DNA from: Bdellovibrio sp. ZAP7
Lineage (GTDB): Bacteria > Bdellovibrionota > UBA1018 > CAIMNF01
NCBI GenBank assembly: GCA_945874535.1
Contig: CAMCGZ010000014.1
Location: 1-64,000, forward strand
Direction: 5' to 3'
Length of the DNA: 64,000 nt
The translations under genes and the position numbers were made by a program. The notes under the pieces are model-generated. The model had not been told where the DNA came from. It did not search any database and saw only the letters and a program-made list of their open reading frames with translations. Shown in pieces: positions 13,962 through 41,201 of the stretch. How positions within the stretch are numbered: position 1 is the stretch's first letter; every line of letters begins with the position of its first letter.

Positions 13962-14036
13962 TGGGGTGTCGGCAAGTGGTAAGCTAGCGGATTTTGATTC
14001 CGCCATTCCTAGGTTCGAATCCTAGCACCCCAACCA
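13962..14036 (+). tRNA. tRNA-Gln(TTG)
   Basis: A cloverleaf with acceptor TGGGGTG/CACCCCA, anticodon stem GCGGA/TCCGC around TTTTGAT (anticodon TTG, glutamine), T arm CTAGGTTCGAATCCTAG and an encoded CCA at 14034-14036. The T1-A72 weak first pair is the usual tRNA-Gln feature. Confidence 0.96.
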
Positions 14037-35543: not shown

Positions 35544-36428
35544 ATGGCCAATCTGATCCAGATCACCGAAGTGTCTAAGGCGTATTATGGCAGAACGGTC
35601 CTCGAGAACGTTTCTCTCGGGATCAACGGAGGGCTGTTTTATGCACTTCTCGGAAAGAACGGGGCCGGTAAGTCCACCTTGATGAGGGTTTTGATGAGGC
35701 ACGAGGCTCCCGATTCCGGTGGAGGGCTCGCTTTCGGTATTCCGTTCTCGGGGAATGATCAATCGGTCAACCATCAGATCGGCTATGTCTCAGAAATGAT
35801 CGAGGTCCATTCCTTCCGGGACATCGGAACATTCTACAAGCAATACGGAAAGTTTTTCAGGTCCTGGGACCAGGCCTTGTTTGACAGTTTCATCCAGAGA
35901 TTCAAAGTGGATCCTTCGAAGCGCTTCCAGGAGCTCTCGCGTGGGCAGAAGATGCAAGTGGTGTTTTCGGCCGCAGTTGCTATTCAGCCGAAAGTGCTCT
36001 TTCTCGACGAGATCACCTCCGTACTCGATGCGAGTGCCCGAGCCTATGTCATGGATTACCTCGGTGGTTTCTGCAAGTCGGGTGGGGCGGTGGTCATGGC
36101 CACCAACCTGGTTTCAGAGGTCGAACGTTACGTCGATCACATCTGGTGGCTGGACAACCGGAGAATCCTGATCAACCAGGGAGTGAAGGAGCTCAAGAAC
36201 CAATACGTCAAGCTTAGGCGGACACTGGGGGAGGATCACCCCGTGTTTCACAAGCCCCACTGCATTTCGGTGGGAGTGAATTCGGACGGGTCTGAATCCT
36301 ATGTCATGGTGAAACAGAAGTTCGATGCGGCCAAACCGGAAAACGCGGAAGCTCTGTACGATCGTCGAGCACTCTCGGCCGAGGAGCTGTTCATCTATCT
36401 CACCCGGGATCGCGGGGTGATCACTTGA
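35544..36428 (+). CDS. ABC transporter ATP-binding protein
   Basis: 294 residues. Walker A GKNGAGKST lies at residues 37-45. The signature loop is ELSRGQ (Arg replacing the first Gly). The Walker B is VLFLDEITSVLD, where Ser replaces the usual Gly after T. The D-loop region VLDASA and the switch region KSGGAVVMATN lack a normal switch His, so hydrolysis may be slow or altered. It overlaps the permease gene by TTGA (two-gene exporter). Confidence 0.85.
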   Translation: MANLIQITEVSKAYYGRTVLENVSLGINGGLFYALLGKNGAGKSTLMRVLMRHEAPDSGGGLAFGIPFSGNDQSVNHQIGYVSEMIEVHSFRDIGTFYKQYGKFFRSWDQALFDSFIQRFKVDPSKRFQELSRGQKMQVVFSAAVAIQPKVLFLDEITSVLDASARAYVMDYLGGFCKSGGAVVMATNLVSEVERYVDHIWWLDNRRILINQGVKELKNQYVKLRRTLGEDHPVFHKPHCISVGVNSDGSESYVMVKQKFDAAKPENAEALYDRRALSAEELFIYLTRDRGVIT

Positions 36429-37978
36429 TCCGGCTCATCCTGTTTTTCATTCCGGACTTGCTCAGGACCGCCGGGCTGGCTCTGATTGGCGTGATCCTGA
36501 TATTGTTTGTCGGGTCCCGTCTCAATGTGGATCGGGAGCTGTTGGCGGCTCCGGGATTCGTCATCCTGATGCTCGGTTTCTCGGGCGGAGTCGGGCTTCA
36601 GAGGAATTCCAGTTGGATCAAGAGCATCCCCGTGAATCGCGCCAGTTTTATGCTGGGCACGCTTTGGGTCTCGGCGCTCCACTTGGCCTTGATGTCTTGT
36701 GTTTATGCGGTTTTTCTGATTGCGGGTAAAGCCTGGGTGCCTGATCTAGAAAAACAACTGGTACTGAATTCGTTTGCTTCCGGATTGTTGAAAGACCTGA
36801 GTGAGGGGGGGCCGTTCGGTGTCATGGTCCTTCAATTCATGGCGGCATTTTTTTTCATGTCGAGTTTCAGTCCTTTTGTGAACCGGCTGAAGTACGGTCA
36901 GTGGTTTGAATCCATTCCCATGAAGTGGAAGCTCGGGTATTTTTCGGCATTCATCGTTGCAGGGATAGTCATCACTGAGGTCGGATCATTTTTTGTCGGT
37001 TGCCTGTCGCTGCTCGGGCTGATGTGGTGGTCGATCCAGAATTCCATCCAACGGGAGTTGGCCTTGTATCCAGCCGCGAGAAATGCTGTGAGGGGATGCG
37101 TCCTTGCTGCGCTGATCATCCAGGGGGCTTTGGTTTACGGGTTGGCTCACCGCGATTTGAGAGGACCTGATGCCCGCCGTGCGTTCAACGCAAGTTGGAT
37201 TCTTGGGTCTTTGGGCCTACCGATTCCCGAGGAACGTTTGGTCCAGTTCATGAACGAAACGAAGGATTCCGGAATGATCATTGAAATGATCCAGTCCAAT
37301 CCGAAGATCCTGAGTCTCGTCAATCTCGAGGTTTGGCTGAAGTCCCGAAGCGATCCGAAGATGGTGATGGCGATCGAGGAGAAGTTGGATCCAGAAGGTT
37401 TGGAGAAGACCAAGATCGAAGAGTTGCTCCAGAAGTACGATGAGTTGAAGTTCGATCCGAGGCCCCAGCTTTATGTGAAACTGCTCCGATCGAAGGTGAA
37501 GTCCGAGGAGGCCAAGGATCTTCTGGCTTCCGAGAGCAAGCATACCCTCGCTTTCGGTATCCTCTTGTGCCGAATGTGGGTGGAGCAGACTTGCGTTCCA
37601 GGCCTGTTCGAACAGGTCAAGGTCCTTTCTGACAAGGATCCTTTTCAGCGGTACCTCTTGAATGAGATTTTGAAGACCCTCTCGGTCTTGAAAGGGGAGC
37701 ATCTCGGTCTTGATTTCTATACCGACGTCCGGTCCGAAAAATTCAAAGCCCTGGACTGGGTGGAGCCTGATTTGAATTGTCGGGATTGGGCCCAGACTCT
37801 CGGTCCCGGTCAGATTCAGACCCAAGATGAGGTATGTCGCTGGAATCACTGCATCCTGTCGGCTCTGAAGAAGGGCGGCTCAGAACAGGCCCGCTACTCG
37901 GCGGTGGGGTTTTTAGAGAAGCCCGCCCTGGACCGGGAACGGATGGTTTGGATCGCTTTGCTCAAAAAACTCCTTTGA
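36425..37978 (+). CDS. ABC-2-type permease with soluble C-terminal extension
   Basis: 517 residues starting at TTG in a TTGA overlap. Six or so membrane helices cover residues 1-245 (ILFFIPDLLRTAGLALIGVIL ... GALVYGLAH). A helical soluble tail of about 270 residues follows, with HEAT-like pairs (PKMVMAIEEKLDPEGLEKTKIEELLQKY, PQLYVKLLRSKVKSEEAKDLLA). Ordinary ABC-2 permeases lack such a tail. It could act as a periplasmic or cytoplasmic adaptor. The cargo is unknown. Confidence 0.65.
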   Translation: MIRLILFFIPDLLRTAGLALIGVILILFVGSRLNVDRELLAAPGFVILMLGFSGGVGLQRNSSWIKSIPVNRASFMLGTLWVSALHLALMSCVYAVFLIAGKAWVPDLEKQLVLNSFASGLLKDLSEGGPFGVMVLQFMAAFFFMSSFSPFVNRLKYGQWFESIPMKWKLGYFSAFIVAGIVITEVGSFFVGCLSLLGLMWWSIQNSIQRELALYPAARNAVRGCVLAALIIQGALVYGLAHRDLRGPDARRAFNASWILGSLGLPIPEERLVQFMNETKDSGMIIEMIQSNPKILSLVNLEVWLKSRSDPKMVMAIEEKLDPEGLEKTKIEELLQKYDELKFDPRPQLYVKLLRSKVKSEEAKDLLASESKHTLAFGILLCRMWVEQTCVPGLFEQVKVLSDKDPFQRYLLNEILKTLSVLKGEHLGLDFYTDVRSEKFKALDWVEPDLNCRDWAQTLGPGQIQTQDEVCRWNHCILSALKKGGSEQARYSAVGFLEKPALDRERMVWIALLKKLL

Positions 37979-38028
37979 TTACTGTGGGATCACTTTACTT
38001 TTGGGATACTGCCCGATACAACTGGCGC

Positions 38029-39156
38029 ATGATGACAATCCTCTTGTTTTCATTTGCCATGCTATTTCAATCACCGGCCCAAGCCGGGGACGCAGGGATT
38101 CCCGGGTATTGTCCTTCGGTCAATCTCTATGAGTCCGGGGGAAACCCCTTTGACCGCATGCCCATTTATGATCAGGGTGAGCTGAGCACTTGCTACGCTT
38201 ACACCGCTTCCCAGTTGATCGATTTCTGGCGTTTTAAAAACCAGCCCGAGGCGACTGATTTGACGTCACCCGTCTGGACCGCCCTCGTACATAAGGTCCG
38301 CATGCCCTTGCATTGGAATCCCGACAACCTCGATTTTTCAAGGATGGCATGGGTGTTCCGGAGTCTCGAAAAAGAGGGTATTTGTCGCGCGGATGTGGTG
38401 GATCGTGCCATCGATCGACTCAGGAACGGGAATCCGCGGATGCAGGAGCCGGATCTCATGGCACTCTTCCAGCAACTCTGGGATGAGTATCAGGAACAGT
38501 CTTCGATTTTAGGAATGAACCCCGGAGCTTATGAGATCGCTTATGCCAAGGTTTCTTCTCAGCCGTATTTTGTCAGCCGGATTGATCAGTCTTTGATCGA
38601 GAAGTTCCGGTTTATCGATGGACGATCCAAAGGGAAAAGGCTGGAGACCCTTCTGACCGAGGTTTTCAGCGAATGTTCAGGATCGAACCTCCTGCCCATG
38701 AATTTGCCCCGCTGGAAATCCATCGGACTCGGATTTGCATCAAACCGGAAGATCATTCGTAAGTTGAACGAGGTGCTCGAGCAAGGGAATCCTCTCGGGA
38801 TCGGCTATTGCTCGAACCTTCTCGATGAAGGTCACGGCTATCGCGCATTCAAAACTAAACCTCGTGTACTCGGACTCGCGCTCAGGCAAGAGAAGTGCGG
38901 GGCTCATTATTCCATCGTCGCTGGACAGCGTCCAAGTCACGATGGAAGTTGCGAATTCCTGATCCGGAACACTTACGGTACCGGATTCTGGACGGATCAT
39001 TTTTCTTGCATGTGCAAGAGTCGCGATCCTTCTGTTGCCGGGTACCAGGAATGCCGCGCCAGCGAAGCGGAGCGCAGCAATCAACAAGTGGTCGGTTGTT
39101 GGATCAGCGGGCAAGACCTCGCAAACAACACTTACGACCTGACTTGGTTTCAGTGA
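38029..39156 (+). CDS. Secreted papain-like (C1A) cysteine protease
   Basis: About 375 residues from ATG 38029, giving a clean signal peptide (residues 1-19, SPAQA). Papain active-site order is complete: oxyanion Gln49 (YDQG), nucleophile Cys55 (LSTCYAY), His293 (CGAHYSIVAG) and Asn314 (LIRNTYGTGFW). A long insertion separates Cys and His, and several extra Cys suggest disulfides. Possible roles are prey or host protein degradation or envelope processing. It lies just upstream of the large non-coding region. Confidence 0.85.
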   Translation: MMTILLFSFAMLFQSPAQAGDAGIPGYCPSVNLYESGGNPFDRMPIYDQGELSTCYAYTASQLIDFWRFKNQPEATDLTSPVWTALVHKVRMPLHWNPDNLDFSRMAWVFRSLEKEGICRADVVDRAIDRLRNGNPRMQEPDLMALFQQLWDEYQEQSSILGMNPGAYEIAYAKVSSQPYFVSRIDQSLIEKFRFIDGRSKGKRLETLLTEVFSECSGSNLLPMNLPRWKSIGLGFASNRKIIRKLNEVLEQGNPLGIGYCSNLLDEGHGYRAFKTKPRVLGLALRQEKCGAHYSIVAGQRPSHDGSCEFLIRNTYGTGFWTDHFSCMCKSRDPSVAGYQECRASEAERSNQQVVGCWISGQDLANNTYDLTWFQ

Positions 39157-39237
39157 GCCGGATCAGCCCGCGTTTTTCGGCTTTTGTCCGACTCTGCATG
39201 TAAGAGGACTCTCTTCCTCCATTTTAGTGAGCCTGTG

Positions 39238-39256
39238 GCTTGGCACGCGATCTGCA
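39238..39256 (+). promoter_or_regulatory. Sigma-54 (RpoN) promoter
   Basis: Bases 39240-39256 read TTGGCACGCGATCTGCA. This differs from the sigma-54 consensus TTGGCACG-N4-TTGCA by one base. The essential GG (39242-39243) and GC (39254-39255) are separated by exactly 10 bases. It lies about 80 bases beyond the protease stop and points into the structured RNA, predicting a start near 39267. No enhancer-binding site was identified. Confidence 0.75.
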
Positions 39257-39266
39257 CTCTATCCGG

Positions 39267-39990
39267 ATGTCGAGGATGGAGGTCCTCGATGGAGAAACAG
39301 CAGCGATGCTCGCTTCTCTTTCCTACGGGTTGAAGTCCCGGAGGCGGAATCGTCCGGTTGCCGCCTGAAGCACAGATCCGGAGAGCCCTCTGAGAAGGGG
39401 GTTTTTTGAGCAGGACCTGAAAAGTCCGGGGAATCGCATCCCCGGGCAGCAAAAGCCCCGGTTGGCACGAAAGTGCGCCTTGTTGAACCTGTCTACTCGA
39501 TGGTCGGAGCGAAACCATCGGGGGGAGATCCGCCGAGTCCGGGTGAAGCCGGATGAAGGCCAGTGTCTACGAATCCTTACTGGAAAATACGGATTCGAGA
39601 GGGTCGGATAGGGAAAAGGACTACGGGGGCTGGAGGAAAGGAAGTCAAAGCACGGAAGCACTCTCTTCTTTCCGACCCGGCTTGAGGTTGAAGGTCGGAG
39701 CCCGCGCAAGCGGTGAAGGAGTGTGGCAGATGAGGCCGATAAGTGCGCAAGCACGAGGGCCTCTGCAGTAGGTCGGATGAGGTCGGGTCCCGACTTCATC
39801 TCGGGGAGAAGGCAAACGGGTGTCTGGATTCTGTTTCCCTCAAGAAGGAACGGAACCGAAAGATCGCCCGGAAGACCTCTCTTGAAAAGGCCGACTGTTC
39901 AGCCGTATCGGGAAAAACCCCACGTACGGAATGAGTCAAACGGGAGTGGAAACGCCGGATCGGAAGGTTCGAAACGCGCCACTCCCGTCT
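39267..39990 (+). ncRNA. Large structured (ornate) non-coding RNA, undescribed
   Basis: Open frames here are short and carry no recognisable domain, but the plus strand is packed with perfect stems. They include TCGAGGA/TCCTCGA (39270-39289), AGGCGG/CCGCCT (39342-39366), CGGGGA/TCCCCG (39427-39444), CGATGGT/ACCATCG (39498-39520), TCCGG/CCGGA (39538-39553), CGAATCC/GGATTCG (39570-39597), long-range GGGTCGGA/TCCGACCC (39601-39678) and a GATGAGGTCGGG/CCCGACTTCATC arm (39776-39800). A 10-bp terminal stem ACGGGAGTGG/CCACTCCCGT (39940-39988) closes it. Three stems carry GNRA tetraloops: GCAC-GAAA-GTGC, CCGC-GCAA-GCGG and GTGC-GCAA-GCAC. The extent is set by the sigma-54 promoter and the final stem. 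The function is unknown. Confidence 0.7.
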
Positions 39991-39995
39991 CCATT

Positions 39996-41201
39996 TCAGG
40001 CTGGAGTACGGACGGTGGAAGGCGATCGGAAGAAGAAGGCCATCAACATCGTTCCCCCTGCAAAGCAAGCCCATGCCTCGAGCGACACATGACCGATCAA
40101 AAGCCCTGCGATAATGGGGGCGAATATCGATGCCATCGATGCCAAACTCTGTCCAACTCCGAAAATAGAACCCTGCTCTTTGGGACCGACCGCATGGGAC
40201 ATGAGAGCCGAAACCGAGGGGCGAATCAATCCTGAGCCAATCGAAGACAGAGTCGAAGCCAAGAGTGCCATGGGGACTGTCTGCACGAAGGCGTAAGTGG
40301 TGAACCCCAAGCCCTGCGCCAAGAAGCCGATCCTCGAGGTTCCCTTCTCTCCGAACTTCTTGATCAAAGTACTGATGATCCAGCTCCGGACTCCGATTCC
40401 GAGGAGTCCGAGATAGGCGTAAAGGTAACCGACTTCCTTGGGTCCGAAAGGGGCGCCGTTCCAGGTCAGACGCCTCTCGGCGAACAGGGCGAAGCAAGAG
40501 ATGTGAGCCGAGAACGACAAGTTGAAAAAGAAGAACTGGAGCAGCAGGGGACGAACTTCGACCTGGCGGAGATAACTGAAGAGTGGCTTGAAGTCGAATG
40601 CGTGAGAGAGTTCCCCGAGACCGATCTTGAACGGCTTTTTTTCCTCATGCACTTGCTTGGCGTCCTGAAAGAAAGCAAGTGTCGAGAGGATGCTCAAGAA
40701 TGACAGGACCGCAGCTCCCCAGGCGGGTGCCTGATGTCCGAAGTGGGAGAGCAGTGCCGAAATGGCAGGACCGACGAAAAATCCGAGTCCGAAGGAAACG
40801 CCGATGAGCGAGAAAGCCTTTGCACGTTCCTGGGGTTTGGTGATGTCCGAAATGGCCGCTTGAGCCACTGTGATGTTTCCGGCCGTGATGCCATCCATGA
40901 TCCGGGCCAGATAAACCATCCAAAGTGAATTGGATAACGCGAGAATGATGAACCCGACACAGGTTCCGATCTGGCTCAGGATCAATACTGGCTTTCGGCC
41001 CATGCTGTCCGACATCCGTCCGAGCACCGGGCCCGCCAAGAACTGACAGAATGAGAAGGAGGTCAGGATGAGTCCGACCTGGGTGGGCGTCGCACCGAAT
41101 TGTTCGGCGTAAAACGGGAGATAGGGAAGCACCAGAGTGAAAGCGAGGATATCGACAAAAACGATGAAAAAAATCGCGAGAAGAGGCCTCGACCGGAGCA
41201 T
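39996..41201 (-). CDS. MFS drug/metabolite exporter (TetA-like)
   Basis: 401 residues with about 12 helices. The N-half has the major facilitator loop GRMSDSMGRKPVLILS (motif A) between helices 2 and 3, and the ARIMDGITAGNITVAQAAISD block typical of TetA/multidrug exporters (DHA1). It converges with the structured RNA, its stop lying 6 bases past the RNA's terminal stem. The substrate is unknown. Confidence 0.85.
   Translation of the reverse strand: MLRSRPLLAIFFIVFVDILAFTLVLPYLPFYAEQFGATPTQVGLILTSFSFCQFLAGPVLGRMSDSMGRKPVLILSQIGTCVGFIILALSNSLWMVYLARIMDGITAGNITVAQAAISDITKPQERAKAFSLIGVSFGLGFFVGPAISALLSHFGHQAPAWGAAVLSFLSILSTLAFFQDAKQVHEEKKPFKIGLGELSHAFDFKPLFSYLRQVEVRPLLLQFFFFNLSFSAHISCFALFAERRLTWNGAPFGPKEVGYLYAYLGLLGIGVRSWIISTLIKKFGEKGTSRIGFLAQGLGFTTYAFVQTVPMALLASTLSSIGSGLIRPSVSALMSHAVGPKEQGSIFGVGQSLASMASIFAPIIAGLLIGHVSLEAWACFAGGTMLMAFFFRSPSTVRTPA

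Follow-up and report, generated by a model that had tools for sequence, protein, structure and literature searches.

On the forward strand of the 64-kb window analysed here (the whole 64,000-nt stretch of DNA), positions 39241–39993 hold a conserved non-coding RNA gene together with its promoter, and the RNA of ~725 bases is almost certainly a derivative of a group II intron. It is likely to be a stand-alone RNA gene, and with good confidence we read it as a domesticated, free-standing group II RNA, driven by sigma-54 and probably serving as a stress scaffold or regulator, not as a splicing ribozyme.

The RNA is placed at 39266–39993, from a predicted +1 lying ~12 nt past the GC element of the promoter to the end of a terminal helix, with exact ends that we infer. 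Across 39266–39987 (722 nt) it is 91.7% identical to its counterpart in genus-mate G009 and 88.8% identical to that in G006, with no gap columns at all, while third codon positions of the adjoining MFS gene reach 55.9% and 46.6%, respectively, and the 84 nt 5′ of the promoter show just 51–55% identity to two genus-mates. Since the RNA is kept so much better than its neighbours, and without gaps, selection must act on the nucleotides themselves; the same gap-free, nucleotide-level conservation rules out a protein frame at the locus. The initial annotation had proposed a large structured non-coding RNA between stop codons at 39156 and 39996, with no convincing frame in between: both stops are correctly positioned, no frame is conserved against two genus-mates, and the missing frame and the compensatory changes described below bear the proposal out. 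The RNA strand has a minimum free energy of −328 kcal/mol (z = −6.05), a value equalled by none of 20 shuffles. For the upstream gene, named a protease, the stop at 39156 holds and the label is without any Pfam match; its 440-aa product and the 517-aa protein preceding it (36425–39156) are both Pfam-negative and both conserved in genus-mates. Elsewhere in the window, a tRNA gene (13962–14033) is the sole Rfam match at gathering score.

A sigma-54 promoter dedicated to the RNA, as had been suggested, is well supported. The −24/−12 element TGGCAC-N6-TGCA (GG-N10-GC; 39241–39256, forward strand) has a single match in the 64 kb versus 0.26 expected, and the site is present in 17/17 genus homologues, three of which have the form CGGYAY. 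Despite diverged surroundings, these homologues carry [TC]GG[CT]A[CT]-N6-[TA]GC[AT] 661–779 nt 5′ of domain V. Each of the 12 genus genomes also encodes RpoN, so that two marks of a sigma-54-dependent gene are present, a conserved −24/−12 element at the locus and RpoN in the genome. Outside the genus, 11 of the 12 members of families f11, f12, f18 and f22 with upstream sequence carry a sigma-54 site; the f9 members examined lack one and have sigma-70-like boxes there instead (by eye).

Consensus folding was performed without a group II template, separately for subgroups A (8 sequences), BC (6) and XY (3), and each arrived at an identical chain of six domains in group II order. Two-sided changes occur in 121 of the 212 pairs of subgroup A, where none of 500 shuffles scored as high on any of five measures and the paired fraction dropped from 95% to 39–47% in slid controls. 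Subgroup BC has two-sided changes in 70/169 pairs. All elements lie on the forward strand. A 5′ leader hairpin (39269–39290) has 8 pairs, 6 of them with two-sided changes, and is followed by the 5′ strand (39291–39296) of a terminal helix which joins both ends of the RNA in the consensus fold of two subgroups, albeit with weak covariation (one pair per subgroup); its 3′ strand (39988–39993) ends 2 nt short of the convergent MFS stop codon (39996). Between these strands come domain I (D1, 39304–39654), domain II (D2, 39655–39727, consensus fold plus covariation), domain III (D3, 39732–39763) with the D2/D3 joiner before it, a short domain IV (D4, 39765–39898) without reading frame, domain V (D5, 39899–39934) and domain VI (D6, 39942–39987), with D1, D3 and D4 likewise drawn from the consensus fold. 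Two stems pointed out previously change meaning in this fold. The ‘10-bp closing stem’ ahead of the convergent gene corresponds to domain VI. The 8-bp long-range pair 39601–39608/39671–39678 can be read in the letters but is not conserved, with 3–6 of 8 pairs left in distant homologues, and the conserved partner of 39671–39678 sits within domain II.

Group II ancestry emerges from two regions of the RNA. In its 5′ part, the Rfam model group-II-D1D4-4 (RF02003) matches the window at 39323–39472, inside domain I, with 27.8 bits (E = 4.5e-4), which is below the gathering score of 49; nine relatives score 57.1, 52.9, 50.9, 73.4, 58.9, 58.4, 57.1, 53.4 and 49.4 bits. In its 3′ part, domain V reads TCAGCCGTAT-CGGG-AAAAA-CCCC-AC-GTACGGAAT, and 36 members of the family have a D5 with a triad, a 6-bp helix, an AY bulge and an AAA-containing loop. 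A covariance model built from the D5–D6 sequences of the family alone also detects a bona fide maturase-bearing intron in genome G032. The domain V–VI model RF00029 has no match anywhere in the own genome (G000), which is consistent with a diverged D5. The likeness to the ornate large RNA classes seen in the initial annotation holds for size and structure, but the RNA is not an unrelated class, being a group II derivative by RF02003; kinship with OLE, GOLLD, ROOL or merRNA fails, as neither the first three nor the c-di-GMP riboswitch is matched by Rfam, whether across the window at the gathering threshold or across 39100–40100 at E ≤ 10.

Ordinary group II introns also turn up in the wider search. 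G032 (contig C115) harbours one with a canonical D5 located 3′ of a maturase C-terminus, and G144 harbours another, also with a canonical D5, in two identical copies; some matches of the phylum search are such introns (G032, G144 and probably G304). The introns of G032 and G144 are useful as positive controls; since they, too, have the 13-nt distal arm of D5, this arm was dropped as a family signature.

At the window locus the RNA departs from an ordinary intron in several respects. D5 retains the AGC triad and an AC bulge of 2 nt, but the triad faces AAU in place of GUU, leaving the A and G of AGC without their standard partners in register. The branch-point A is absent throughout the window lineage, the lower D6 stem being completely paired with no unpaired A on its 3′ strand. 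Intron boundaries of the GUGYG (5′) and AY (3′) type within a split gene are not seen: the 5′ intron motif GUGYG is replaced by GNAGCGA, no gene is interrupted, and the promoter lies immediately 5′ of domain I. A T-run comes after D6 in several members, for example CCACCTCCCGTTTTTTA in G004. The maturase X domain (GIIM) was found neither in the own genome nor in 11 genus-mates and is absent from 34 of the 40 searched genomes, which mostly carry the RNA; all 12 of the genus are among the 34. The one reverse transcriptase found in the own genome belongs to the UG/DRT (defence) type (G000:C34:1194–1838; L029:975–2213), and an overlapping membrane-protein frame comes after it; it was rejected as partner of the RNA, as its type is wrong and the two do not co-occur across the genus.

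These losses are unevenly distributed. AAC triads occur in three f9 members and UGC in the b copies, whereas f11, f12, f18 and part of f22 retain AGC opposite GUU, and f11 and f18 have a possible unpaired branch A in D6. Since canonical features persist in other families, the ancestor was probably canonical and decay confined to particular lineages; some f11 and f18 (and some f22) members may still be catalytic. With the maturase, the host gene and, in the window lineage, branch A all gone, ordinary splicing is unlikely at the window locus. More broadly, the fold persists through changes of the triad (AGC, AAC or UGC) and, in some lineages, without the branch A, which argues that splicing is not what drives conservation.

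A strict D5 signature scanned against 84,980 species returned ten loci, all labelled Bdellovibrionales, Oligoflexia, Pseudobacteriovorax or Proteobacteria, and none in viral contigs. A phylum survey with a D5 model from 24 sequences (369 genomes, cut-off 48 bits) found matches above the cut-off in 35 genomes, representing 19 genera and six families; weaker matches include real introns. In a tree of 36 members, sequences cluster mainly by family (disregarding the miscut rows G001c and G011c). The window locus beside MFS and LexA genes is common to G000, G009, G006 and G003 and, more loosely, to G011, G001 and G008. Judged by such shared loci, the RNA copies are vertically inherited.

Several genus genomes carry two or three copies at further fixed loci, beside Hsp20 (G002, G003) or erythromycin esterase/acyl-CoA carboxylase genes (b and c copies). 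The second, diverged copy of the own genome (G000:C5:28200–28326; L059:5273–6030) is situated between erythromycin-esterase and acyl-CoA carboxylase genes; it has a sigma-54-like site of its own, and its D5 shows a UGC triad. Identical copies in G099 contain the promoter and stop just past D6; because RNA-mediated copying would lose the promoter, they were more likely made by DNA duplication or gene conversion than via RNA. In the same genome, the two ends of a 12.4-kb contig (G099:C43:1–12455) carry identical 3′ parts of the RNA, inverted relative to each other, likely an inversion or gene-conversion site. Two contigs of a Pseudobacteriovorax MAG (L034, L041) start at one shared base within the RNA; the copy is identical in both and finishes with GGTTTA past D6, a recent duplication.

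Genes near the RNA often belong to stress responses. Hsp20 is immediately downstream in G217, G216, G190 and G003, and CBS-domain proteins are encoded nearby in G190, G116, G189 and G100. Further neighbours are a universal stress protein (G190), a BON protein (G222), Lon and a Crp-type regulator (G100), sigma-54 activators (G321, G116) and a trypsin/PDZ protease (G002). One locus (G190:C9:17400–19800; L150) has the one-strand order RNA, Hsp20, RNA, CBS gene, tandem copies thus flanking Hsp20. The window copy adjoins LexA and MFS genes, not Hsp20. Together with the sigma-54 promoter, these stress neighbours, noted at individual loci, point to probable membership of a stress regulon. At many loci the RNA lies just 5′ of a co-oriented gene, which is compatible with a leader or with an independent RNA; independent action is favoured at the window locus, since no co-oriented gene follows it, and at the Hsp20 loci the RNA could serve as a leader. 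A regulatory or scaffold function is only plausible, and we suggest it on the ground that decay has touched the branching and triad features but spared the fold and core.

In the scenario that would unite these features, the sigma-54 promoter fires a few dozen bases 5′ of domain I once an enhancer-binding protein senses stress, and the RNA accumulates. The transcript would adopt the six group II domains and stop at or shortly past domain VI, which in several relatives is a hairpin plus T-run. The intron-encoded reverse transcriptase/maturase, the host gene and, in the window lineage, the branch-point A have all been lost along the way, and the RNA may now contribute to a stress programme whose genes are often its neighbours, folded into a scaffold or regulator to which a host protein perhaps binds.

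An ORF-less group II intron that is still active, able to splice, hydrolyse or reverse-splice either by itself or with a maturase supplied in trans, is an unlikely explanation. The window D5 does retain AGC and the AY bulge, canonical triad pairing and a possible branch A survive in the families named above, and the identical copies of G099 and of G040 stop directly past D6, all of which speak for such an element. However, no maturase was found in the genome or genus to act in trans, a promoter abutting D1 leaves hardly any 5′ exon and no gene is interrupted, the window RNA itself has lost branch A and triad pairing, the G099 repeat units carry the promoter, and AAC and UGC triads occur elsewhere. 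Quite unlikely, too, is a very long 5′ leader that controls a stress gene further downstream in cis and uses D6 to terminate or attenuate transcription. A co-oriented gene does begin within ~40–130 nt in many relatives, encoding for instance Hsp20 (G217, G216, G190, G003), a CBS protein (G190, G189) or a sigma-54 activator (G321); but four genomes at the window locus have the convergent MFS gene with its stop codon almost abutting the RNA, with conservation intact, and the T-runs of several relatives would terminate transcription ahead of the next gene.

The features missing from the RNA (triad partner, branch A and ORF) are also those that a functionless, decaying relic would have shed, but we consider a relic highly improbable given 88–92% gap-free identity against 47–56% at third codon positions, compensatory changes in 121 pairs and a retained promoter. 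If the RNA belonged to an unrelated ornate class and its hairpin resembled D5 by chance, this would explain why the window on its own scores under Rfam gathering; that relatives are far above this threshold and that D1 (by Rfam) and D5 (by eye and model), two regions independent of each other, stand in the correct order make this reading the most improbable of all, close to negligible.

As a domesticated group II RNA, the family can be placed among known systems. It shares with the group II introns of RF02003 six ordered domains, a D1 core recognised by the model, and a D5 with triad and AY bulge (the triad facing AAU in the window lineage), but differs in having its own sigma-54 promoter, in lacking exons, frame, maturase and, in the window lineage, branch A, and in GNAGCGA standing for GUGYG. 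The ORF-less intron C.te.I1 of Clostridium tetani self-splices without an encoded protein or a related genomic maturase (PMC4424553); both absences recur here, while the present family is promoter-driven, intergenic and phylum-wide. The nearest non-coding derivatives, likewise large and devoid of an ORF, are the circularly permuted group II RNAs, which have the order D5-D6-D1-D2-D3-D4 and retain the bulged A of D6 (PMC8637638). The window RNA has the canonical domain order and has lost branch A; circular permutation was rejected, as D5–D6 do not precede D1 in the consensus fold. Bdellovibrio bacteriovorus, from the same broad bacterial group, produces merRNA, a 445-nt c-di-GMP riboswitch RNA, and APsRNA6 of 655 nt (PMC3627812); merRNA and the APsRNAs are also non-coding, some under a special promoter; merRNA differs from the window RNA in that the latter has no riboswitch match. 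OLE, GOLLD and ROOL are comparable in size and structural complexity, and unlike in that the window RNA does not match their Rfam models. In the journals covered by a literature search, no description of this RNA family was found.

The spliceosome and its RNAs are thought to descend from group II introns. In bacteria, group II derivatives that lack their protein are considered rare and short-lived (PMC4424553). Our analysis suggests that cells turned a former genomic parasite into an RNA gene, and on balance we lean towards a phylum-wide, host-domesticated group II family of sigma-54-controlled multi-copy RNA genes, which would be under selection while splicing features decay in several lineages and which, in predatory bacteria and related groups, would work in stress and in lifestyle switching as RNP scaffolds or as regulators. 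If true, a promoter-driven family kept across the phylum would offer a natural, living example of a host-recruited intron ribozyme, and the recruitment step would be directly testable by comparing the catalytic-looking members of f11 and f18 with the non-catalytic-looking members of the window lineage.
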